DNA from: Microbacterium resistens NBRC 103078
GTDB lineage: Bacteria; Actinomycetota; Actinomycetes; Actinomycetales; Microbacteriaceae
Assembly (NCBI RefSeq): GCF_001552355.1
Contig: NZ_BCRA01000010.1
Location: 1-64,000 of the forward strand
Direction of reading: 5' to 3'
Length of the DNA stretch: 64,000 nt
Shown: piece by piece, positions 26,707 to 37,795 of the stretch
Layout: each line of letters begins with the position of its first letter
How positions within the stretch are numbered: the stretch's first letter is position 1
Notes under the pieces: generated by a model
What the model was told of the DNA's origin: nothing
Seen by the model: only the letters and a program-made list of their open reading frames with translations
Databases searched by the model: none
Program-made: the position numbers and the translations under genes

Positions 26707-27474
26707 ATGAGCTTTCCCGATCTGGCAGGACGCGTCGCCGTCGTCACGGGCGGTGCGCGGGGGATCGGCTACTCGCTGGCATCCGCGCTCGCGCGTGAGG
26801 GCGTGAGCGTCGCCCTCCTGGACCAGCTGCCCGAGGTCGAGGAGTCGGCCGCACGCCTGGCAGCCGCGACCGGAGCGCCGACCGCCTCGGCCGTCGTCGA
26901 CGTGACGGACCCCTCGTCCGTCGATGCCGCCTTCTCCGCCGTCCGCGAGCGTCTCGGGGTGGCCGATCTGCTCGTGACCGCGGCCGGCATCACCATCTGG
27001 GGCGACTCCGCCGAGGTCGACCCCCGCACCTGGTCGAAGGTCGTCGACGTGAATCTCAGCGGCACGTTCTACGCGACGCAGGCGTTCGCCCGCCCGCTGC
27101 TCGCCGAGGGGCGCGAGGGCTCCGCCGTCCTCATCTCGTCGATGTCGGGCCGCGTGGTCAACGTGCCGCAGCACCAGGCGTCGTACAACGCATCGAAGGC
27201 CGCCGTCGATCAGCTGGCGAAGTCGCTCGCGGTCGAATGGGCGCCGCGCATCCGGGTCAACGCGATCGCCCCGGGGTACATCCTCTCCGACATGACCCGG
27301 CAGTTCACCGAGGAGAACCCCGAGCTCGCGGCCGACTGGGTGTCGATGATCCCCGCCGGACGCATGGGCGAGCCGGCTGACCTCGACGGGATCCTCCTGC
27401 TGCTCGCCTCATCGGCCTCGTCGTACCTCACCGGTCAGACGCTGGTGATCGACGGCGGCTATACCGCGATCTGA
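26707..27474 (+). CDS. Short-chain dehydrogenase/reductase (polyol or sugar type)
   Basis: A 255-residue classical SDR. The cofactor motif is VAVVTGGARGIGYSLASAL, the active-site Ser is in VLISSMSGRV, the Tyr-Lys pair in ASYNASKAAVDQL, and RVNAIAPGYILSDMTRQF and IPAGRMGEP follow. It is clearly paralogous to the SDR at 37869, and both are followed by a rhamnulokinase-like kinase. Such SDRs oxidise polyols to ketoses or reduce keto-sugars (gluconate 5-dehydrogenase/sorbitol dehydrogenase group). The start is preceded by GGAGG. It follows the transporter genes, so it probably performs the first oxidation of the imported compound. Confidence 0.9.
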   Translation: MSFPDLAGRVAVVTGGARGIGYSLASALAREGVSVALLDQLPEVEESAARLAAATGAPTASAVVDVTDPSSVDAAFSAVRERLGVADLLVTAAGITIWGDSAEVDPRTWSKVVDVNLSGTFYATQAFARPLLAEGREGSAVLISSMSGRVVNVPQHQASYNASKAAVDQLAKSLAVEWAPRIRVNAIAPGYILSDMTRQFTEENPELAADWVSMIPAGRMGEPADLDGILLLLASSASSYLTGQTLVIDGGYTAI

Positions 27475-27475
27475 C

Positions 27476-28951
27476 ATGCCGGCCGCCTACCTCGCCGTGG
27501 ACCTCGGATCGTCGAGCCTGCGGGTCATGATCGGCCTCCTGCGAACGGATCGCCCCGGTGAGCCGATCCTCGAGATCCGAGAGGCGGGTCGCTTCCCGAA
27601 CGTCCCCGTCCGCCGGCCGGAGGGGCTCGGCTGGGACGTGCCCTCGCTCCGCGACGGCGTGCTCGCCGGGCTCCGCGCGGGTGTGACCGCAGCGGCGGAC
27701 GCGCAGGCGCCGTTGCGCGGGATCGGCATCGCGGCGTGGGGTGTCGACTACGCCCGGCTCACCCGCGCCGGGGCTCTGCGTCCGTTCATGCGGCACCATC
27801 GCGACGCCGACGTCGTCCTCGCCGCGACCACGGCGTCCGGACGTGACGCCGCCGCCGACTACGCCGTGACGGGGGTCCTCGACCAGGCCATCAACACCGT
27901 CCATCAGCTGCGGCAGGACCTCGCGGCCGGGATCGGCGCGCCCGACGACACGATCCTGCTCACCGCAGATGTCTTCGTGCACCTGCTCACCGGGCGGATC
28001 GGCGCCGAGGCGTCGCTCGCGTCGACGACGGGCCTGCTCGACCGAGCGACCGGCGACTGGTCCGCCGCGCTCGCCGCAGGGCTCCCCGCCGTGCTCCCGC
28101 CGATCGTGCCCGACGGATCGCCCGCCGGCGAGACCACGGACGAGGTGACCGCCGCGATCGGCGCGCACCGCCCCGTCCCCGTGTACGCGGTGACCGCGCA
28201 CGACACCGCCGCGGCCTTCATGGCCGTCACGGACGCCGCGGACGCCGGGACGGGCGTCGTGTCGAGCGGAAGCTGGGGCGTCGCGGGGGTAGCCATCGCC
28301 GCCCCTCTCCTGGAGGAGCGTGCGCGACTCGCGGGGTTCACGCAGGAGATCGGCGCGGCGGGCGACACCCTTCTGGTGAAGAACCTCAGCGGCATGTGGC
28401 TGCTGCAGCAGACACTGCGCGAGTGGGCCGAGGCCGACGGCCGCCCCGGACCCACGATCGAGTTCCTCACTCGGCTGCTGGCGGAGGCCGAGGCATCGGA
28501 CTACCGCGGGCGCTTCGACCCCGCGGACCCGGCGCTGCAGGCGCCGGGCGGACTGGTGGGGCGACTGGAGGAGGCATGCGTCGCGCACGGCGCCGCCCGG
28601 CCTCGCACCCGCGCCGACCTCGTGCGGGCGATCGTCGACAGCCTCGCCTCCGCCTACGCCGAGACCCTCGAGCTCGCGGCGGGGTTGAGCGGACAAGACC
28701 TGCGGCGCATCCGGATCGTGGGCGGTGGCGCGCGCAATGCGCTGCTGTGCGCGCTCACCGCGGAGCGCAGCGGACGCACGGTGGTCGCAGGGCCGGTCGA
28801 GGCCTCGGTGCGCGGCGTGCTCCTGCAGGTCGCGATCGCGGCGGGCGACCTCGACCCCGCGGCTGCCCGAGGGCTCGCCGTCGACGACGGCGACGGCCCC
28901 GAGCGCATCATCCACCCGGCATCCGCCCCAGCGAACGGAGAGCACGCATGA
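27476..28951 (+). CDS. Rhamnulokinase-like FGGY kinase
   Basis: A 491-residue FGGY kinase closest in motif pattern to rhamnulokinase: AVDLGSSSLRVMIG at the N-terminus, GIGIAAWGVDYARL in the substrate region, TAHDTAAAFMAVTD with the catalytic Asp, and RIVGGGARNALLCALTAERS at the C-terminus. Differences from RhaB are GSWGVAGV in place of the usual CGTW segment and the altered substrate loop (AAWGVDYA instead of DSWAVDYG). This suggests a different ketose. It stands one base after the SDR gene and is ATGA-coupled to a class II aldolase, giving an oxidise-phosphorylate-cleave order. The substrate is not known. Confidence 0.87.
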   Translation: MPAAYLAVDLGSSSLRVMIGLLRTDRPGEPILEIREAGRFPNVPVRRPEGLGWDVPSLRDGVLAGLRAGVTAAADAQAPLRGIGIAAWGVDYARLTRAGALRPFMRHHRDADVVLAATTASGRDAAADYAVTGVLDQAINTVHQLRQDLAAGIGAPDDTILLTADVFVHLLTGRIGAEASLASTTGLLDRATGDWSAALAAGLPAVLPPIVPDGSPAGETTDEVTAAIGAHRPVPVYAVTAHDTAAAFMAVTDAADAGTGVVSSGSWGVAGVAIAAPLLEERARLAGFTQEIGAAGDTLLVKNLSGMWLLQQTLREWAEADGRPGPTIEFLTRLLAEAEASDYRGRFDPADPALQAPGGLVGRLEEACVAHGAARPRTRADLVRAIVDSLASAYAETLELAAGLSGQDLRRIRIVGGGARNALLCALTAERSGRTVVAGPVEASVRGVLLQVAIAAGDLDPAAARGLAVDDGDGPERIIHPASAPANGEHA

Positions 28952-29703
28952 CTCGGCGCGAAGAGCTGACCGAACTGAGCAGGAGACTCGGGGACCCGGG
29001 CATGGACGCAGCCGTGCTCGGCGAGGGAAACACGTCGATGCGCGACGGTGACGCGATGCTCGTCAAGGCGTCGGGTGCCGTCCTCGGCCAGGCGACGCCC
29101 GCGGACTTCGTCCGGATAGATTTGGGAGAGGCGCTGGAGCTCGTCGACGACGACCGGGCGACCGGCTCCGATGTCGATCGGTACTTCGATCGTCTGGCGA
29201 CGACGGAGGGGCGGCGTCCCTCCGTCGAGGCACTGCTGCACGTCGTGCTGTACGACCAGACCCCCGCGCGGGTCATCGCGCACTCTCACCCCGCCCACGT
29301 CAACGCGCTGCTGTGCTCCGCGCACCCGGAACTGCTGGTGGAGGGAGCGCTGTTCCCCGACCAGATCGTGGTGCTGGGGGCCAAGCCGCTGCTGGTGCCC
29401 TATGTCGACCCGGGGCTGACGCTGGCGCGCGAAGTGCGGGCGCGACTCGTCGCCCATCAGCGCGCGCACGAGGCGCCCCCGTCGACGGTCTACCTGCAGA
29501 ACCACGGGATGTTCGCCACCGGTGCGAACGCGGCACAGGTGCTCGGCATGACCGCGATGGCCCAGAAGTGCGCGCGGACGATCATCGGTGCCGCCGCCGT
29601 GGGCGGTGTGCGCTTCATGCCGGAACACGAGGTGCGGCGCATCGACACCCGGCCGGACGAGAACTACCGGCGCGCGCTGCTCGCCGAGGGGGGAGAGGAA
29701 TGA
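28948..29703 (+). CDS. Class II aldolase/adducin family protein
   Basis: A 251-residue protein of the AraD/FucA class II aldolase family: GEGNTSMR near residues 24-31 (the GNxS phosphate motif), VIAHSHPAHVNAL with the zinc-binding His pair, the partly conserved acidic segment LVEGALFPDQ, and YLQNHGMFATG with the third His. Such enzymes cleave ketose-1-phosphates to DHAP plus an aldehyde. Coupling by ATGA to the kinase before and the SDR after parallels the fused aldolase-SDR of the rhamnose pathway, here as separate genes. It is probably the carbon-carbon cleaving step of this operon. Confidence 0.87.
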   Translation: MTRREELTELSRRLGDPGMDAAVLGEGNTSMRDGDAMLVKASGAVLGQATPADFVRIDLGEALELVDDDRATGSDVDRYFDRLATTEGRRPSVEALLHVVLYDQTPARVIAHSHPAHVNALLCSAHPELLVEGALFPDQIVVLGAKPLLVPYVDPGLTLAREVRARLVAHQRAHEAPPSTVYLQNHGMFATGANAAQVLGMTAMAQKCARTIIGAAAVGGVRFMPEHEVRRIDTRPDENYRRALLAEGGEE

Positions 29704-30434
29704 CCGTGACGAGCATCGAGGGGCGCACCGCACTGATCACCGGAGCGAGCTCGGGCATCGGCCTGGCGACCGCGCAGGCGCTCGCCGCCGCCGGGTGCCG
29801 TGTGGTCGCCGTGGCCCGCGACGAGGAGCGGCTCACCACCCTGGCCGAGCGGCATCCGGATCTCGTGTCGACGCTCAGAGCCGACGTCGCCGATCCCGCC
29901 AGTGCGCAGCGGATCGTGGACGAGACGCTCCGGCGGCACGGCCGGCTCGACATCGTGCTGCCCAACGCCGGGATCTACGTGGGCGGGGACCTCGTCGACG
30001 CGACGGTGGAGCAGATATCCCGCCTGGTCGCGACCAACATCACCGGGGTCATGACCCTCGTCCGGGCCGCGCTTCCCCCGTTGCTGGCACAAGGGAGCGG
30101 AGACATCCTCGTGACGAGCTCGGTGTCCGGCCACCAGGACATCGAGTGGGAGCCGGTCTACTCGGCCAGCAAGCACGCCGTGCAGTCCTTCGTGCACACG
30201 GTGAGACGGCAATACGCGAACAGCGGTGTGAGGATCGGGGCGATCGCGCCGGGCGTCGTGCTGAACCCGCTATGGGGGTTCGCGCACGGTTCTCCCGAGG
30301 AGGCGGAGCGGATCGCCGACGCCACCGGGATCCGCTCCTCGGACGTAGCGGATGCCATGCTGTTCATGCTGACGAGGCCCGCGCACGTCGTCGTGCGCGA
30401 CCTCGTGCTGCTGCCGTCCGGACAGCCGATCTGA
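29700..30434 (+). CDS. Short-chain dehydrogenase/reductase
   Basis: A 244-residue SDR: ALITGASSGIGLATAQAL cofactor motif, NAG (LPNAGIYVGG), active-site Ser in VTSSVSGHQD, Tyr/Lys in YSASKHAVQSF, and IAPGVVLNPLWG. It differs from the other SDRs here in the late region, which resembles ribitol-dehydrogenase-type SDRs. It overlaps the aldolase stop by ATGA. By analogy with the aldolase-SDR fusion at 15019, it may process the aldehyde released by the aldolase, or oxidise a second polyol. Both are inference. Confidence 0.87.
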   Translation: MTVTSIEGRTALITGASSGIGLATAQALAAAGCRVVAVARDEERLTTLAERHPDLVSTLRADVADPASAQRIVDETLRRHGRLDIVLPNAGIYVGGDLVDATVEQISRLVATNITGVMTLVRAALPPLLAQGSGDILVTSSVSGHQDIEWEPVYSASKHAVQSFVHTVRRQYANSGVRIGAIAPGVVLNPLWGFAHGSPEEAERIADATGIRSSDVADAMLFMLTRPAHVVVRDLVLLPSGQPI

Positions 30435-30483
30435 GGAGGCGCGACATGCGGCAGGGACCGAAGGCGCCGGCAGGAGGCGGGAC

Positions 30484-31461
30484 ATGATCGCCCCGATCGT
30501 GACCCTGACCGCAGCCGGCGCGATCGACGCGACCTACCGGGTGCCAGGAGCCCTCGAGCGCGGCGCCTTCGTCAGGGCGTCAGGGTGCGAGCGGGAGCTC
30601 AGCGGAAAGGGTGTGAACGTGTCAGGCGCGCTGAGCGCGGCCGGCGTGCCGACCTCGGCGGTGGTCGTCCTGGGCGAGGACGACCTGCCGTTCGCGCGGG
30701 CGTCGCCGCTGGCCGGGCTGCTGCGGATCGTCCCGGTGCCGGGCGCGACGCGGGTCAACATCTCGGTCATCGACTCCGAGGGTGCGACGACCAAGGTGAA
30801 CGCGCCGACGCCCGGGATCGCGACCGCAGCCTGGGCGGAGGCGTGCAGCGCGGTCGCCGACGCGTCGGCCGGGGCAGGGTGGGTCGTCGTATCGGGCACG
30901 CTCCCGGCGGTCGGCGGCGCGACGGCGCGGATCGCCGACGTGGTGCGTGCGGTGGGGATCGCGGGACCCCGCATCGCGGTCGACACCAGCGGTGCCGCGC
31001 TGGCCGACGCGGCAGCCGAACCCGCGGGGATCGCCGTGATGAAGCCCAACACGCACGAGCTCGCCGAACTGGTGGGGCGCTCGCTGCGATCGGTCGGCGA
31101 CGTCGTCTCCGCGGCGCGGGAGCTTCGCGCGCGGGGTGTCGGCATCGTCTTCACGAGCATGGGTGCGGACGGCGTGCTCGTGGTCGGCGATGCCGCCGTG
31201 GTCCACGCCACGGCGCCTGCCCCCGCGGTGGTGAACACCGCGGGCGCAGGCGACGCGTCGCTGGCCGGATTCCTGGTCGGGCTCGAAGACGACCCTGGGC
31301 GTGCTGACGCGCTCGCCCGGGCGGCCGCGACGGCTGCCGCGTGGGGCGCGCTCTCCGTGGCGCAGCCGACGACGATCCTGTCCTCGCTCGCCGGTGCGCC
31401 GCGTGCGGAGGTGACGCGCGACCCCGATCCCGCCCTCCGTCTGACCGAGCCGGCGGGCTGA
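30484..31461 (+). CDS. PfkB-family hexose/ketose phosphate kinase (1-phosphofructokinase-like)
   Basis: A 325-residue ribokinase-fold kinase. The N-terminal substrate motif is ERELSGKGVNVSGALSAAG (the GGKGxNVA signature, first Gly replaced by Ser), and the C-terminal anion hole/catalytic motif NTAGAGDASLAGFLVGL carries the catalytic Asp. It belongs to the FruK/LacC/PfkB subgroup that phosphorylates fructose-1-P or tagatose-6-P. Sited after the aldolase-SDR genes and before a LacD-like aldolase region, it could make a ketose bisphosphate. It is the last gene of the plus-strand run and faces the kinase-HAD fusion tail to tail. Confidence 0.85.
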   Translation: MIAPIVTLTAAGAIDATYRVPGALERGAFVRASGCERELSGKGVNVSGALSAAGVPTSAVVVLGEDDLPFARASPLAGLLRIVPVPGATRVNISVIDSEGATTKVNAPTPGIATAAWAEACSAVADASAGAGWVVVSGTLPAVGGATARIADVVRAVGIAGPRIAVDTSGAALADAAAEPAGIAVMKPNTHELAELVGRSLRSVGDVVSAARELRARGVGIVFTSMGADGVLVVGDAAVVHATAPAPAVVNTAGAGDASLAGFLVGLEDDPGRADALARAAATAAAWGALSVAQPTTILSSLAGAPRAEVTRDPDPALRLTEPAG

Positions 31462-31471
31462 CCCGCGGCGG

Positions 31472-31523
31472 GACGGCCTCCGGACACGGCACCTCAGCCG
31501 ACGGCCTGTACCCGGAGGCCGTC
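31472..31523. terminator. Possible hairpin between convergent genes
   Basis: GACGGCCTCCGG (31472-31483) and CCGGAGGCCGTC (31512-31523) are perfectly complementary 12-mers with a 28-base loop. They span the end of the minus-strand gene. It may act as a terminator, or may be chance in GC-rich sequence. Confidence 0.35.
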
Positions 31524-32711
31524 CGCCGCGAGCGTCGTCGTGATCCGGTCGAGCCCGTCGAGCAGCAGGTCGGCGGGAAGCTCCGAGTCGGCGACCGTCC
31601 CGGTCAGTCCGATCACCGTGCACCCCGCCGCGCGGGCGGCGAGGATCCCCGCTGGGGCATCTTCCACGACCAGGCACCGCGCGGGATCGATGCCCAGCCG
31701 ATCCGCGGCGGTGAGGAACGGCTCTGGATCCGGCTTGCCGTTGCTGACGTCGTCCGCCGTCACGAACACGTCGGGGGCGTCGAAGCCGGCGGCGCGCAGG
31801 CGGGCTGTGGCCAGACGCCTGGTCCCCGAGGTCACCACAGCCCTGCGCTCGGGCGGGATGCCGTCGTAGAGCTCCCGTGCACCGAGTACACCGGGCAGCT
31901 CCACGGTGTCGGCGAGCTCGAGATCGAGCACTCGTGCGACCCCCTCGGCGCGAAGCTCGGGCGGGAGCAGACGGGTGACGAGCGTGTGCGCCGGTTGCCC
32001 GTGAGTCGCGTGCAGCGCCTCCATCGAGACCCCGTAGTGCTCCGCGAAGCGACGCCACGCGCGGATGACCGAGGCGGTGGAGTCGACGAGCGTGCCGTCG
32101 AGGTCGAAGAGCACGGCGTCGAAGGAGCGCGAGAAGACCGCGGAGGCGCGATCGATCGGGGTCCTCATCCCGACGGCGCAGCGCGCCCGCACGAGCTGCT
32201 GCGCGGGGGAGAGATCCGCGTCTACGGACACCACGGGGATCGACGGCGAGCGGAGGCGCTCCTCGATGCGGTGATCGTCCCGCGGCGAGCCGCGCATGGC
32301 GCGACGGGACGCGAGCAGTCCCGGGTCGCCGTGCAGGTGCAGCACGCGCGGGACGACGGGCGCCACGGCCGCTTGCAGCAGCTCCCACTCTGCGCCGCCC
32401 TCGAGCTCCCGGGTGAAGGGGGCCACGAGCACGGCTCCGCCCGTGGTCGCCACGACGTCGGCGGCCACGGCGCGCAATGCGGCGTACCTGCCTTCGCGGA
32501 TCGCGGAGGCGTGCGCTCCGCGGAGCCAGTGTCCGCCGCCCCACGTCTCGGAGTCGAGCGCATCGAGCAACGGCGTCGTCACGGCGTCGAGGTCGATCAG
32601 GGGGAGACGAAGGTCGGCGGCCAGCGCGCGACCGAGCGTGCTCTTGCCGCTGCCGGCGACGCCCGCCACGACGACCACGCGGTGTTCGAACGGTTGACAG
32701 GGCTGGCTCAT
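31494..32711 (-). CDS. P-loop sugar kinase (gluconokinase-like) fused to HAD-IA phosphatase
   Basis: A 405-residue fusion. Residues about 10-180 form a P-loop kinase of the gluconokinase/shikimate kinase type, with Walker A GVAGSGKST at 17-25, acidic LIDLDAV, and a lid with Arg residues (RRAMRGSPRDDHRIEERL). Residues about 197-405 form a HAD subfamily IA hydrolase (beta-phosphoglucomutase-like): motif I FDAVLFDLDGTLVDS (203-207), motif II VVTSGTRRL, motif III Lys in GKPDPEPFLTAA, motif IV VVEDAPAGI. So one polypeptide may both add and remove phosphate. The start follows a TATGGT box by 6 bases and a perfect LacI-type palindrome lies upstream. The substrate is unknown. Confidence 0.85.
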   Translation of the reverse strand: MSQPCQPFEHRVVVVAGVAGSGKSTLGRALAADLRLPLIDLDAVTTPLLDALDSETWGGGHWLRGAHASAIREGRYAALRAVAADVVATTGGAVLVAPFTRELEGGAEWELLQAAVAPVVPRVLHLHGDPGLLASRRAMRGSPRDDHRIEERLRSPSIPVVSVDADLSPAQQLVRARCAVGMRTPIDRASAVFSRSFDAVLFDLDGTLVDSTASVIRAWRRFAEHYGVSMEALHATHGQPAHTLVTRLLPPELRAEGVARVLDLELADTVELPGVLGARELYDGIPPERRAVVTSGTRRLATARLRAAGFDAPDVFVTADDVSNGKPDPEPFLTAADRLGIDPARCLVVEDAPAGILAARAAGCTVIGLTGTVADSELPADLLLDGLDRITTTLAADGLRVQAVG

Positions 32712-32717
32712 GCCTCC

Positions 32718-32744
32718 ACCATAGGAGATAAAGACACCGGTGTC
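32718..32744 (-). promoter_or_regulatory. Promoter of the kinase-HAD gene with operator GACACCGGTGTC
   Basis: On the minus strand TATGGT (32723-32718) ends 6 bases before the ATG. The perfect 12-bp palindrome GACACCGGTGTC at 32733-32744 covers the spacer and -35 region. The CACCGGTG core recurs at 36997-37004. Confidence 0.65.
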
Positions 32745-32793
32745 ATGGTTGATTTTCCGCGGAACATCGGTGGCCAGGAAACGAGGAGCCCCC

Positions 32794-33702
32794 ATGATCG
32801 CCACCGCCGCAGCGAACCCGCTCACCACGCTCGAGAGACGGGCGCTGCAGACCCTCACCACACCGGGTGGGGGACTGCTCATCGTCGCCGCCGACCAGCG
32901 CAACGGGATGAAGGCGGCCATCCCGGACGCTCCCGCCGGTGCCGACGCGATCACGAGGGAGGAGCTCGCGGCGGTCAAGGCCGATCTCGTCCGTCACCTC
33001 GCGAACCACGCCCCGGCGATCCTCCTCGATCCGGAGGTGGCGCTGCCCGGGGTCGTGGACGACGGCGTCATTGGGCGCGGCACGGCCCTGGTCGTGGGTC
33101 TCGACGCCTCCGGTTTCGAGACCGACGACGGCCTGCGCTACACCCGCTTCGTCCCCGGGGTGACCCCGCGCACGGTGCGGGAGCTCGGCGGCGGGGTCGC
33201 GAAGATGCTCTATTACACGCGACCGGATCGGCAGGACCGGGACTCCCGCGTCTTCGCCGAGATGCAGGCGCTGATCGAGGAATGCGAGGCGGAGGGCCTG
33301 TTGCTCATCGTCGAGCTGCTCACCTACCGGCTCGACGACGAGAGCGAAGAGGACTACACGAGCGCCTTCCCGGCGCTCGTGGCCGAGGGTGCGGCGCTCG
33401 CCGTCGCTGCGGGGGCGAAGATCCTGAAGCTGCAGTACCCGGGGTCGGCGGAGGCCTGTGCCGCCGTGACCGCGGCCGCACAGGGCGTGCCGTGGGCAGT
33501 GCTCTCCGCGGGAGTCGACCACGAGACCTTCGTGTCCCAAGTGTCCGTCGCGGTCGCCCATGGGGCCGCCGGGGCGATGGCGGGCCGCTCCCTGTGGAAG
33601 GACAGCCTCTCGTACGACCCCGCGCGCCGGAAGGAGCTGCTCACGGCGCGCGCCCTGCCGCGGCTGCAGGAGCTCGCGGGCGCGGTCGACGGGCGCGTCT
33701 GA
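32794..33702 (+). CDS. LacD-like class I aldolase (tagatose-bisphosphate aldolase family)
   Basis: A 302-residue TIM-barrel aldolase of the DeoC/LacD family. Recognisable segments are LIVAADQRNGMK near residue 36, AILLDPEVALP, VAKMLYYTRPD, LLIVELLTYRLDDES, and the Schiff-base Lys in AKILKLQYPGS (about residue 212). LacD cleaves tagatose-1,6-bisphosphate; close relatives cleave sulfo- or deoxy-sugar phosphates. The ATG has GAGGAG upstream, and the divergent promoter carries the GACACCGGTGTC operator. With the PfkB kinase at 30484 it could form a bisphosphate route, but no sequence feature fixes the substrate. Confidence 0.87.
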   Translation: MIATAAANPLTTLERRALQTLTTPGGGLLIVAADQRNGMKAAIPDAPAGADAITREELAAVKADLVRHLANHAPAILLDPEVALPGVVDDGVIGRGTALVVGLDASGFETDDGLRYTRFVPGVTPRTVRELGGGVAKMLYYTRPDRQDRDSRVFAEMQALIEECEAEGLLLIVELLTYRLDDESEEDYTSAFPALVAEGAALAVAAGAKILKLQYPGSAEACAAVTAAAQGVPWAVLSAGVDHETFVSQVSVAVAHGAAGAMAGRSLWKDSLSYDPARRKELLTARALPRLQELAGAVDGRV

Positions 33703-33762
33703 CCGGGCTCGGGCGGGTAGGGTGGCCGAAGGCTGCCCCGCCCGAGGGGCGAGGAGGTGCCT

Positions 33763-34761
33763 GTGACGACGATGCGTGACGTCGCGGCGCGCGCGGGCGT
33801 GAGCACGAAGACCGTGTCGCGCGTATTCAACGACGACCCGCACGTGCTGCCCGCGACCCGGGCCCTGGTCGAGCGGGCGATGCACGAGCTCAACTACGTG
33901 CCGAACGTGCTCGCCACGACCTTCCGTGCCGGCCGCACGTCCGTGATCGGTGTGGCCGTTCCGGACATCGTGGACCCGTTCTTCGCCTCGATCGCCCGTG
34001 CGATCGAGGACGTCGCACGGGGGCGGGGCCTGTCAACGCTCGTGACGAGCCTGGGAGCGGACCCGGCGCGCGAGCGCGCGGCGATCGAGTCGATGCTCGG
34101 TCGACAGCTGTCCGGACTCGTGGTCGCTCCGGTCGGGATCGATCACTCCTGGCTGGAGCGCTGGCGCGAGCACACCCCGCTCGTGTTCGTCGACCGTGCG
34201 CCCGTGGGACTCGACGTCGACACGTTCGTCGAGGCGGACGAGCGGGGCGCCGCGCTCGCCGTCCAGCACCTCGTCGCGCACGGTCACCGACGCATCGCGT
34301 ATGTGGGGGACGCGGTGCACCTCTCGACCGAGGCGAACCGGCTGGAAGGGTGGCGGCGTGCGCTCGTCGAGGCCGGGGTCGAGGCGGACGAGGACCTCGT
34401 CCGGACCGGGGTCTCGGACCGGGACGCGGCGCGGGACGCGATCGCCGCGCTGCGGGCACTGCCGGACCCGCCGACCGCGGTCTTCTCGGCGAACGCGCGT
34501 TGCTCGATGGCGCTGGCGGCGGCGCTGCGCGATGACCCGCTCGCGATCGTCGGCTTCGGCGACTTCCCGATGGCCGATGTCCTGACGCCGGCCCTCACGG
34601 TGATCGATCAGGACCCCTATCGGCTGGGCACTCTCGCGGCGGAGCGCATCTTCACTCTGCTCGACAGCGGCGGCGCCGCGCGCGCGGCGCCGGTGCTCTC
34701 CGTCATCGATGTGGCCCTGGTCGAGCGTGAATCGTGCGGCGGACGAGGCCCTGCCGGCTGA
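33763..34761 (+). CDS. LacI family transcriptional regulator (LacI-2)
   Basis: A 332-residue regulator: N-terminal LacI DNA-binding domain (MRDVAARAGVSTKTVSRVFN, hinge YVPNVLATTFRAG) and a sugar-binding-protein-like core (SVIGVAVPDIVDPFFASIAR onward) ending with DVALVERES. GTG 33763 is chosen because GAGGAGG lies 5 bases upstream; the GTG at 33757 overlaps that site. TAGGGT at 33718 is a plausible -10. It lies between the only two sites in the window with the CACCGGTG core, so it probably controls the kinase-HAD, LacD-like, kinase-MDH and DCXR-like genes. No operator copy was found at its own promoter. Confidence 0.92.
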   Translation: MTTMRDVAARAGVSTKTVSRVFNDDPHVLPATRALVERAMHELNYVPNVLATTFRAGRTSVIGVAVPDIVDPFFASIARAIEDVARGRGLSTLVTSLGADPARERAAIESMLGRQLSGLVVAPVGIDHSWLERWREHTPLVFVDRAPVGLDVDTFVEADERGAALAVQHLVAHGHRRIAYVGDAVHLSTEANRLEGWRRALVEAGVEADEDLVRTGVSDRDAARDAIAALRALPDPPTAVFSANARCSMALAAALRDDPLAIVGFGDFPMADVLTPALTVIDQDPYRLGTLAAERIFTLLDSGGAARAAPVLSVIDVALVERESCGGRGPAG

Positions 34762-34776
34762 CCCCGCACCCGCGCG

Positions 34777-36951
34777 TCATCCCAGCGCGGCCATGGCGGC
34801 GCGGGCGCCGTCCGCCGCGATGCGGCCGCGTGCCTCGACGAACGCCGTGCGCAGGCGTTGATCCTGCCCCAGGCCTCCGAACACGGGCGCGCAGTCGAGG
34901 AACGCCCCGGGTTCGGCGTGCTCAGCGGCCAGGGCGGCGTGCAGCAGGTCGATCCGGCGATCCACGACCGGCGTCGGGGTCCCGTCGTCCGCGCGCCCCT
35001 CGAGGAACACGCTCCACGCGGCGATCACCAGGGCGGCGTGCGCGATCGATCCCCCGGAGGACAGCTGGGCGCGCACCACGGGAAGCAGGAAGGTGGCGAT
35101 GCGGTCGGCCCCGTCGACCACCTGCCGTGCGAGCGTGTCGCGCACGGCCTCGCTGGCGAAGCGGGCCACGAGCTGGTCCGTGTACTCGTCGAGATCGATG
35201 CCCGGCACCGGGCGGAGCGTCGGGATCGCCTCCCGGTGCATGTACCCGTGCAGGAAGGAGCGGAACAGTGGGTCCGAGCACGTCTCGTGCACCGTCGTCA
35301 TCCCGGAGAGGATTCCGAGGTAGCCCATGGCCTGGTGGGAGGCGTTGAGCAGTCGGAGCTTCATCAGCTCATACGGCTCGACGTCGTTCACGATCTGCAC
35401 GCCCACCGTCTCGAAAGCCGGCCGCCCCTGGGGGAAGTCGTCCTCGAGCACCCACTGCGCGAAGGACTCCGAGCGCACGGGCCACCGGTCGTCCACGCCG
35501 AAGCGGTCGCGCACCAGCGCGCGCGTCTCTTCGGACGTCACGGGGGTGATCCGGTCCACCATCGAGCTCGGGAACGACACGGTGGTCCGGATCCAGGACG
35601 CCAGATCCGGGTCGACGAGGTCAGCCAGCCCCGCCACCGCGGTCCGTGCCACCGTGCCGTTTCCCGGGATGTTGTCACAGGACATCACGGTGAACGGGGG
35701 GATGCCGCGGGCCCGTCGGCGGGCGAGGGCGGCCACGAGGTAGCCGAGGGCACTGCGGGGGTGCGACGTTCCGTCGCCCTCCGCGTCCGAGCGGGTCGCG
35801 TCGTCCTGCGGGGCGAACCGCCCCGTGGCCTCGTCGATGCCGTAGCCGCCCTCGGTGATCGTCAGCGAGACGATGCGGGTCTCGGTCGCGGACAGCGCGG
35901 CAAGCACGGCCTCTGGGTCGTCCGGTGCGTAGAGATACTCGGTCATCGAGCCGACGACGCGCGCCGACTCGGTTCCGTCCGGGGTCACGGTGACCAGAGT
36001 GTAGAGACCGTCCTGAACCGACATCGCGTCCCGCATCGCGGCATCCTCCGGCCGCAGCCCGACGCCGCGGATCGACCAGTCGGCGGCGCCCTCGGCGAGC
36101 AGGCGGTCGACGAAGAACGCCTGGTGAGCCCGATGGAAGTTGCCCACGCCGATGTGCACGATGCCGGGGCGCACGACGTCGCGGTCGTATGCCGGTCGTG
36201 CGACCTGAGGGGGCAGTGCAGCCAGCGTCCTCGCGCTGAGCGGGACCGCACCGCCCGCGTCGGTGAGTCGGAGGACGCGGTCGGCGCGGCCCCGTGAGGA
36301 CCGCACGAGCTGCGCGTTCGCCTCGTCGACGCCGTGGACCCAGGCTGCCGCCGCGTCACGGGCGTGGCCGTGACCCTGCCGACGAGCGATCAGGCGGCTC
36401 CGTCGCGTGTCGTCGTCGAGATCGAGGTACCAGACCTCGTCGAGCAGCGGGCGCACCGCCTCCCATCCGTGGCCGTCGTGCAGCAGGTAGTTCCCCTCCG
36501 TGATGACCAGCGGCGTCTCGGCATGCACCGCGACCGCGGCGCCGATCGGCTCCTCCCGGTCGCGGTCGAACACGGGCGCATACACGGTTCCCGTGGTCTG
36601 CGCGGCGAGTCGTCGGAGCAGTGCGACGTAGCCGTCGACATCGAAGGTGTCCGGCGCGCCCTTGCGCTCCCGCCGGCCCAGCCTCCCCAGCTCCGCGTCG
36701 GCGAGGTGGAAGCCGTCCATGCCGACGACGACGGCCGCGTCTCCGAGGGCGTCGACGAGGGCCGCCGTCACGGTGGACTTCCCCGCTCCCGGAGGGCCCG
36801 TGATCCCGAGGATGCGTCGGCGTCCGTCCTGCGTCCATCGGCGCGCATTCCGGACGAGCTCGTCGAGGGACGTGTCGGGGCCGGTCATCGGGTCGGGCGT
36901 GGTGCGGGACACGGCGTCGAGTTCTTCCTGGTCGAACGGCTCGGGAGTCAT
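34777..36951 (-). CDS. P-loop kinase fused to mannitol dehydrogenase family polyol dehydrogenase
   Basis: A 724-residue fusion. Residues about 25-245 are a uridine-kinase/YggC-FrcK-like P-loop kinase, with Walker A GPPGAGKST at 52-60, DGFHLAD at 79-85, and an Arg-rich lid (RRSRLIARRQ). Residues about 255-724 are a long-chain mannitol/fructuronate dehydrogenase, with Rossmann motif VHIGVGNFHRAHQAFF at 265-280, SLTITEGGYGID, and the catalytic KLRLLNASHQAMGYLG with Lys, Asn and His intact. MDHs oxidise polyols to ketoses with NAD. I have no known single-protein precedent in mind for this domain pair. It suggests oxidation coupled to phosphorylation of the same ketose. Length equals both parts combined, with no frameshift. 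Confidence 0.88.
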   Translation of the reverse strand: MTPEPFDQEELDAVSRTTPDPMTGPDTSLDELVRNARRWTQDGRRRILGITGPPGAGKSTVTAALVDALGDAAVVVGMDGFHLADAELGRLGRRERKGAPDTFDVDGYVALLRRLAAQTTGTVYAPVFDRDREEPIGAAVAVHAETPLVITEGNYLLHDGHGWEAVRPLLDEVWYLDLDDDTRRSRLIARRQGHGHARDAAAAWVHGVDEANAQLVRSSRGRADRVLRLTDAGGAVPLSARTLAALPPQVARPAYDRDVVRPGIVHIGVGNFHRAHQAFFVDRLLAEGAADWSIRGVGLRPEDAAMRDAMSVQDGLYTLVTVTPDGTESARVVGSMTEYLYAPDDPEAVLAALSATETRIVSLTITEGGYGIDEATGRFAPQDDATRSDAEGDGTSHPRSALGYLVAALARRRARGIPPFTVMSCDNIPGNGTVARTAVAGLADLVDPDLASWIRTTVSFPSSMVDRITPVTSEETRALVRDRFGVDDRWPVRSESFAQWVLEDDFPQGRPAFETVGVQIVNDVEPYELMKLRLLNASHQAMGYLGILSGMTTVHETCSDPLFRSFLHGYMHREAIPTLRPVPGIDLDEYTDQLVARFASEAVRDTLARQVVDGADRIATFLLPVVRAQLSSGGSIAHAALVIAAWSVFLEGRADDGTPTPVVDRRIDLLHAALAAEHAEPGAFLDCAPVFGGLGQDQRLRTAFVEARGRIAADGARAAMAALG

Positions 36952-36982
36952 CCGCGGCGGTGCGGGCGCCCTGTGGGCACGC

Positions 36983-37006
36983 TACGCTGACCATGTCACC
37001 GGTGTC
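36983..37006 (+). promoter_or_regulatory. Promoter of the DCXR-like gene with LacI-2 operator
   Basis: TACGCT at 36983-36988 predicts a transcript start near 36995, where GTCACCGGTGTC (36995-37006) begins. The core CACCGGTG matches the site at 32733. A further overlapping inverted repeat CCGGTGT-n5-ACACCGG spans 36999-37017. Confidence 0.6.
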
Positions 37007-37066
37007 AAGAACACCGGAACGCCGATCCGGCACCCGCACGCACGTCTCGCGATGGAGAGAGATCAC

Positions 37067-37795
37067 ATGACTGGATTCCAGGGCCGAACCGTCCTCGTCA
37101 CCGGCGCCGGAGGCGGCATCGGTGGTGCTACCGTCCGCCACCTCGTCGCGGCCGGCGCCGACGTCCTCGCCGCCGGGCGTACCGCGGACAGTCTTCAGGC
37201 GATCGTCGAGGAGACCGGTGCTGCGCCGGTGGTCTTCGACCTCGAGGACGAGGGGGCGATCCGTGCCGCCATCGAGGGCCGCGACCTGTACGGCGTCGTG
37301 AACTGCGGAGGCTGGGGCGGCGAGATCGCGACCCCCATGGACACCGATATCGCCGTGTTCGACCGGGTCATGAGCATCAACGCCCGGGGCGCGCTGCTCG
37401 TGACGAAGTACGCGTCGCGGGAGATGATCCGCGTCGGTCGCGGCGGCGCCATCGTGAACGTCTCCAGCCAGGCCAGTCTCGTGGGCCTCGCAGGGCACAT
37501 CTCCTACGGTTCGTCGAAGGCGGCGCTCGACAACATCACGCGCGTGTCCGCGCTGGAGCTCGGGGGGTACGGGATCCGGGTGAACGGCGTCAACCCGACC
37601 GTCGTGATGACCCCGATGTCGGCCTGGTACTGGGGGCGGCCGGAGATCGAGGGGCCCTTCCTCGACGCGATGCCCCTGCACCGCTGGGCGACCGAGGACG
37701 ACATCGCGGCTCCCATCGTGTTCCTGCTCGGCGACGGCGCCGCGATGATCTCCGGGGTGTCGCTGCCGATCGACGGCGGATACACGAGCCGCTGA
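37067..37795 (+). CDS. SDR resembling L-xylulose (dicarbonyl) reductase
   Basis: A 242-residue SDR. It has VLVTGAGGGIGGATVRHL, active-site Ser in NVSSQASLVG, and Tyr/Lys in ISYGSSKAALDN. The DCXR-like signature RVNGVNPTVVMTPMSAW is followed by PLHRWATEDDIAAPIVFLL. The NPTVVMT block and the length of 242 match L-xylulose reductases, which interconvert L-xylulose and xylitol and reduce dicarbonyls. GGAGAGA precedes the ATG by 7 bases. It is divergent from the kinase-MDH fusion across a shared LacI-2-type operator, so the two are probably induced together by a polyol or pentulose. Confidence 0.85.
   Translation: MTGFQGRTVLVTGAGGGIGGATVRHLVAAGADVLAAGRTADSLQAIVEETGAAPVVFDLEDEGAIRAAIEGRDLYGVVNCGGWGGEIATPMDTDIAVFDRVMSINARGALLVTKYASREMIRVGRGGAIVNVSSQASLVGLAGHISYGSSKAALDNITRVSALELGGYGIRVNGVNPTVVMTPMSAWYWGRPEIEGPFLDAMPLHRWATEDDIAAPIVFLLGDGAAMISGVSLPIDGGYTSR

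Follow-up and report, generated by a model that had tools for sequence, protein, structure and literature searches.

A single-chain fusion of an FrcK-type kinase and a mannitol-type polyol dehydrogenase, a putative bifunctional enzyme of Microbacterium resistens

A single uninterrupted gene of Microbacterium resistens NBRC 103078 joins an FrcK-type kinase to a complete mannitol-type polyol dehydrogenase. It lies in a 64,000-nucleotide stretch of contig NZ_BCRA01000010.1, the whole of which is here called the window, and its product is best read, with a probability of about 0.62, as a natural bifunctional enzyme that carries a polyol 2-dehydrogenase and a ketose kinase on one chain. The C-terminal domain would use NAD+ to oxidise C2 of a polyol, giving a 2-ketose; the polyol is probably a hexitol, yielding a ketohexose, for example fructose or tagatose. 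The N-terminal FrcK-type domain would phosphorylate the same ketose at the expense of ATP, and the neighbouring PfkB kinase and LacD-type aldolase could take the ketose phosphate on to triose phosphates. The fusion may have arisen within an existing kinase–dehydrogenase cluster of the genus, through a deletion of transporter genes that joined the two halves in frame. Both enzyme families are known; the dehydrogenase and the kinase are normally encoded by separate neighbouring genes, and here they are fused.

The earlier note on this DNA had described a single chain with two intact domains, an FrcK-like kinase and a complete mannitol-type dehydrogenase, and each of these points is borne out. 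The frame of 724 residues is present on the minus strand (Table 1), and the FrcK-like NCBIfam model NF006743 and three Pfam models exceed their cut-offs, the latter being PRK at residues 47–224 (34.1 bits, cut-off 22), Mannitol_dh at 263–514 (166.6 bits, cut-off 27) and Mannitol_dh_C at 523–707 (134.1 bits, cut-off 30.7). The motifs are in place, with Walker A at residues 52–60, the Rossmann motif VHIGVGNFHRAHQAFF at 265–280 and KLRLLNASH at 531–539. In the PDB, 25 distinct sequences match at E ≤ 0.01, and not one of them spans both halves; the best are mannitol and sorbitol dehydrogenases (1lj8, residues 238–711) and a ‘fructokinase’, 3c8u (residues 41–224). ATG, GTG and TTG start codons were looked for at residues 217–259 and none was found. 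Close to the point where it would normally begin, the dehydrogenase half thus lacks a start codon, and its separate translation from an internal start was rejected.

Table 1. Features of the fusion gene and its neighbours, in window coordinates.
Feature	Position	Strand	Basis
PfkB hexose-phosphate kinase-like protein; 1-PFK family TIGR03168, 208.7 bits vs cut-off 216.4	30484..31461	+	Pfam, NCBIfam
P-loop kinase-like + HAD sugar-phosphatase-like protein; longest frame, start provisional	31494..32978	-	Pfam, NCBIfam
DeoC/LacD-type (tagatose-1,6-bisphosphate-type) aldolase	32740..33702	+	Pfam, NCBIfam, relatives
LacI-family regulator	33757..34761	+	Pfam, NCBIfam, relatives
Fusion gene, 724 codons (FrcK-type kinase + mannitol-type polyol dehydrogenase)	34777..36951	-	ORF, Pfam, NCBIfam, genome comparison
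Dehydrogenase C-terminal domain, Pfam Mannitol_dh_C, residues 523-707	34831..35385	-	Pfam
Catalytic motif ExxKxxxxNxxH (ELMKLRLLNASH), residues 528-539	35335..35370	-	mapping onto 1lj8 + alignment
Dehydrogenase Rossmann domain, Pfam Mannitol_dh, residues 263-514	35410..36165	-	Pfam
Linker, residues 229-239, without usable internal start codon	36235..36267	-	comparison + structure model
Kinase domain, Pfam PRK, residues 47-224	36280..36813	-	Pfam; fold match 3c8u
Walker A GPPGAGKST, residues 52-60	36772..36798	-	translated protein + alignment
SDR, divergent, adjoins fusion; most strongly conserved of the neighbours (72-93% identity where copies are unbroken)	37067..37795	+	Pfam, relatives

The dehydrogenase half has the hallmarks of the polyol-specific long-chain (mannitol 2-) dehydrogenases, with Mannitol_dh and Mannitol_dh_C above cut-off and the motif ExxKxxxxNxxH, which the available text of PMC4022671 gives as the catalytic motif of these enzymes. 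Two structure models of the fusion were used, and in the second this half superimposes on 7rk5 (Z 48.9, rmsd 1.9, 489 residues aligned) and on 1lj8 (Z 45.8, rmsd 3.4, 486 aligned). Residues N191, D230, E292, K295, N300, H303 and R373 of 1lj8, which beyond the motif itself we take in part to be catalytic or cofactor residues, align with N427, D466, E528, K531, N536, H539 and R609 of the fusion. E68/D69 of 1lj8, presumably linked to NAD preference, are kept as well. K381 is replaced by R617, a point against the bifunctional reading; this arginine is invariant over the 36 rows of the alignment, as are E528, K531, N536 and H539. The top-scoring NCBIfam model is that of fructuronate reductase (NF011611, 353.3 bits), which would favour a hexuronate reductase of the fructuronate or tagaturonate type. 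This score is nevertheless far below the cut-off of 603, sequence and fold are nearest to mannitol and sorbitol dehydrogenases, and no uronate isomerase was found among 20 window proteins scanned, mostly from ~26.7–53 kb; a hexuronate reductase is thus improbable, and uronate reductase was rejected as the family name. The D-arabinitol 4-dehydrogenase model NF043014 also scores below its cut-off (339 bits vs 600). Assignment of this half as a polyol dehydrogenase is secure by family, and family, fold and motifs indicate that it should convert a polyol to a 2-ketose.

The kinase half had been called uridine-kinase/FrcK-like, and the second part of that name holds. It passes NF006743 (PRK09270.1-2; nucleoside/nucleotide kinase family, FrcK-like) with 278.5 bits against a cut-off of 227, and it fails the uridine kinase models TIGR00235 (28.9 vs 220.3) and PRK05480 (36.3 vs 180), such that uridine kinase was rejected as a family name and stands as a superfamily label only. 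Residues G52, P54, G57, K58, D79, E152, R186 and R190 are invariant across 32 aligned rows. The structure 3c8u aligns with residues 26–228 of the second model (Z 17.1, rmsd 3.2, 190 aligned) and with the first model at a Foldseek TM-score of 0.87 by target length; ‘fructokinase’, where applied to this half, is the label of 3c8u, its nearest solved structure. The second model has a mean pLDDT of 85.0 and a pTM of 0.71, with lower values in the kinase half (blocks of ~50–88) because few alignment rows cover the kinase. The first has a mean pLDDT of 61.8, with the kinase mostly above 90 and the dehydrogenase poor because the underlying alignment consists of kinases and three fused rows. The linker of ~11 residues runs, in the second model, from the last strand of the kinase (225–228) to the first dehydrogenase helix, which begins at 240. 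Joint kinase and dehydrogenase alignments misplaced kinases and were left out of the analysis.

Comparisons with other genomes provide evidence that the fusion is genuine. First, among the matches listed for 366 genomes of the genus, an unbroken single-frame fusion is present in the M. resistens genome itself and in two others, G629 and G630. The latter two proteins, of 740 aa each, share 73% identity with the window protein over its residues 8–724; their mutual identity of 98.5% marks them as coming from close relatives. Second, in another genome, G521, frames are broken throughout the stretch, yet the junction reads through in one frame. Third, comparison of the window with G630 yields a dN/dS (NG86) of 0.34 in the kinase, 0.23 in the dehydrogenase and 0.64 in the linker stretch, at a dS of ~0.7; both halves, with values below 1, are constrained. 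For the pair G629 and G630, dN/dS is 0.11 in the dehydrogenase, and the values for the kinase (0.76) and linker (2.0) arise from very few changes. These observations rule out, for practical purposes, an assembly error or pseudogene that fused two genes, an explanation left with hardly any probability even though, of the relatives where both halves could be located, nearly all carry two genes. The concern raised in the earlier note, that the halves might be separate genes in all relatives and joined here by faulty assembly, holds in part: they are separate in nearly all such relatives, not in all, and no sign of an assembly error was seen. In the G521 stretch (L145, C1:820000-838000), which comes from a one-contig assembly, many genes are split into neighbouring frames in a manner resembling indel errors.

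Beyond the window, G629, G630 and G521, no fusion was found among the matches listed for 299 family and 366 genus genomes, nor among those listed for 396 phylum genomes (E ≤ 1e-100), 396 order genomes (E ≤ 1e-160), 38 relatives of G630 or 80 loci. These genome sets overlap and include the M. resistens genome; the family, genus, phylum and order scans considered the best 2–3 candidates per genome, and the listings hold one genome a species, such that rarer or more distant fusions can have escaped. Matches of some kind occur in 362 of the 366 genus genomes (own included), many of them weak or paralogous. Among the matches listed, 24 genus genomes (L116–L139) match from residue 213 or later only, at E 1.3e-198 or better, and their kinase, where listed, is in a separate place, sometimes on another contig. 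Of 493 matching plasmid records, four among the matches listed hold 80% or more of the query at a single site, each annotated as two genes. Confinement to a few genomes of one genus, in the scans made and among the matches listed, together with a linker that varies in length and sequence, would suit a neutral fusion, in which both activities are present and the single chain is a by-product of deletion that brings no gain. Against this, the fusion has persisted while the genes diverged by ~0.7 synonymous changes per site, with constraint on both halves. A neutral origin is compatible with a bifunctional enzyme, so that the odds of the two overlap, and we consider it a realistic prospect, if the less probable one.

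Unfused loci suggest how the gene may have formed. In five loci of the genus (L147, L148, L150, L164 and L165), the kinase match ends 3.1–3.3 kb upstream of the dehydrogenase match. The gap in L147 contains a single-domain ABC ATPase, a sugar-transporter-family permease and a frame resembling a binding lipoprotein, for which an NCBIfam match at E ≤ 1e-35 was sought and none found. The unfused kinase closest by identity to that of the window (70–71%) is in genome G586, where it is followed by the start of an ABC ATPase that, compared by eye, is like that of L147, and there the contig ends. The simplest explanation would be that the sugar ABC transporter genes lying between kinase and dehydrogenase were deleted and the two joined in frame. 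In a quick dehydrogenase tree built from the 75 best-scoring rows and a 213-aa piece of L145, the four fused sequences fall on one side of a branch with SH-aLRT 91. Kinase trees were built from 44 rows (duplicates removed) and from 31 rows (also without three long-branch and ten Halomonadaceae rows); the unfused G586 kinase falls among the fused ones, and a fused-only clade has an AU p of 0.0615. A single fusion event is therefore not established.

Close pairing of the two genes recurs in unfused relatives. The 165 dehydrogenase hits in the loci include 5 fused rows, representing three genomes (G629 and G630 each counted twice). In 36 rows a kinase lies on the same strand no more than 400 bases upstream; at least 7 of these rows are repeats of the same place. 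It lies further off on the same strand in 12 rows, among them the broken G521 copy and the second dehydrogenases of L101 and L161, and on the other strand in one. The other 111 rows have no kinase in the stretch examined, many with only ~1.5 kb of flank, and in L093 kinase pieces lie upstream in two frames and are too short for the pairing count. Two Deinococcus plasmids and one Arthrobacter plasmid encode kinase and dehydrogenase as two annotated genes within polyol-type operons, adjoining sugar ABC transporter genes, further dehydrogenases and, on the Arthrobacter plasmid, a xylulokinase. Ten Halomonadaceae loci carry a more distant kinase (33–40% identity), and the pairing is seen in actinobacteria, Deinococcus and Halomonadaceae. 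Among the matches listed, the best ones bearing a name belong mostly to Microbacteriaceae, and the kinase of G120, a genome from the same family as the window, is identical to the one in Plantibacter sp. VKM Ac-2880. The dehydrogenases of three loci on contigs labelled Thermomicrobiales or Chloroflexi (L036, L039 and L044) group inside actinobacterial ones, as does the L036 kinase; this may reflect transfer or misbinned contigs. From the fusion and the recurrent pairing we infer that the kinase half phosphorylates a ketose.

A different role for the kinase deserves consideration. According to the available text of PMC10433430, the S. meliloti fructokinase is Frk, not FrcK; frcK mutants grow more poorly on fructose, sorbitol and mannitol, their fructose uptake is about half of normal, and the substrate of FrcK is ‘not readily apparent’. 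The frcK mutant is restored by plasmid-borne frk, and plasmid-borne frcK restores neither the frk nor the frcK mutant; the test of frcK in the frk mutant is weak because the frcK plasmid fails in the frcK mutant too (PMC10433430). The uptake defect and the obscure substrate, together with the adjacency of the kinase to sugar ABC transporter genes in members of the genus that lack the fusion, would suit a protein in which the dehydrogenase acts as proposed and the kinase takes a different substrate or plays a regulatory part, for instance in sugar uptake, with fusion preserving co-expression only. The fused lineage, however, has no transporter gene between the halves and yet keeps the kinase and its motifs, joined to the dehydrogenase, and the 36 closely paired rows leave no space for a transporter gene between the two. 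Such a role is unlikely, though it deserves more weight than a hexuronate reductase. Polyol oxidation followed by phosphorylation of the resulting ketose, as proposed in the earlier note, stands as the best reading: the family supports it for the dehydrogenase half, and the kinase substrate, left open in the available FrcK literature (PMC10433430), is one that we infer, along with the identity of the polyol, the position phosphorylated and any coupling of the active sites.

The neighbouring genes fit a bifunctional enzyme of this kind. The SDR, the LacI-family regulator, the tagatose-bisphosphate-type aldolase and PfkB match a route from polyol through ketose and ketose phosphate to triose phosphates, and conversion of a ketohexose phosphate to triose phosphates is the best fit to the nearby aldolase and PfkB. 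Gene order from SDR0 to SDR1, the SDR adjoining the fusion (window 26,707–37,795), is kept in G629 and G630. In 26 unfused loci picked for holding both genes, and counting only the stretches examined, homologues are present for SDR1 in 20, LacI in 22, the aldolase in 10 and PfkB in 1. LacI and SDR1 flank the fusion on the plus strand, which places them outside its operon. The aldolase and PfkB are likewise encoded on the strand opposite the fusion, and PfkB is found in 1/26 loci, so that the downstream route is neither general nor part of one operon with the fusion. The minus-strand protein at 31,494–32,978 matches AAA_33 at 101–236, with a shikimate-kinase-like N-terminal half and a C-terminal half that scores 141.2 bits against PRK11587 (cut-off 282); its homologues (46–65%) are present in 8 of the 26 loci. 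The region from 26,707 to 48,647 has the character of a rare-sugar/polyol island, containing four SDRs, a Zn-alcohol dehydrogenase, a sugar ABC transporter, an L-rhamnose isomerase above cut-off, two rhamnulokinase-like proteins below their cut-offs and one xylulokinase-like FGGY kinase (377.2 vs cut-off 380.25). A perfect 19-bp palindrome, CCGGTGTCAAGAACACCGG, is present at 36,999–37,017 between the divergent fusion and SDR starts and has no second exact copy in the window. When a slightly shortened form was sought in 24 relative loci with one mismatch allowed, 3 loci contained it, none at a comparable place judging by coordinates. The palindrome is a possible, weak candidate for a LacI-type operator and plays no part in the argument for the enzyme.

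The earlier note knew of no characterised fusion of this type, and open-licence PMC text likewise yielded no description of a kinase–dehydrogenase fusion. Tentatively, and at slightly less than even odds, the protein may represent a one-chain polyol-to-ketose-phosphate enzyme with an architecture unmet in the searches made, in which case FrcK-type PRK-fold kinases would be ketose kinases acting directly on polyol dehydrogenase products, and the open-chain ketose may be handed over before ring closure. Fusion and recurrent pairing lead to a testable prediction, namely that the kinase takes the ketose made by the dehydrogenase. The fusion is in this respect a gene-fusion clue to the substrate of FrcK-type kinases and, if true, would answer an open question for the family. 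If the activities are confirmed, the protein would also offer a ready one-chain catalyst from polyols to ketose phosphates.

Several known systems resemble parts of the fusion. FrcK-type kinases (NF006743, Silicibacter 3c8u, S. meliloti FrcK) have the family score and 3c8u fold in common with the kinase half, although S. meliloti FrcK is likened by name, the NF006743 score having been measured for the fusion kinase half only; in unfused relatives these kinases adjoin sugar transporter genes, whereas the fusion kinase is joined to a polyol dehydrogenase. The mannitol 2-dehydrogenases of Pseudomonas fluorescens (1lj8) and Aspergillus fumigatus (7rk4/7rk5) share fold, domains and ExxKxxxxNxxH with the fusion and, unlike it, are single-enzyme chains; the available text of PMC4022671 reported in 2014 that polyol-specific long-chain dehydrogenases are ~360–550 aa in length, with the exception of the algal enzyme of 668 aa that it describes. 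The Deinococcus and Arthrobacter clusters have both families, arranged as in the fusion and adjoining polyol/sugar transporter genes, but as separate genes. The nearest one-chain precedent is the Acinetobacter dehydrogenase/phosphatase MtlD (PMC6291793, available text). Like the fusion, MtlD places a related dehydrogenase fold behind a phosphoryl-handling N-terminal domain and unites two polyol-metabolic steps in a single polypeptide, and its structure, 7ocs, matches the second model with Z 25.6 over chain residues 235–694. The N-terminal domain of MtlD is a HAD-type phosphatase (NF046057 positions 112–189 match a HAD domain) and that of the fusion is a PRK-type kinase, with neither a HAD family nor NF046057 among the matches listed for it. 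MtlD acts on mannitol 1-phosphate in mannitol synthesis, according to the available text of PMC6291793, whereas the fusion is proposed to serve polyol use.
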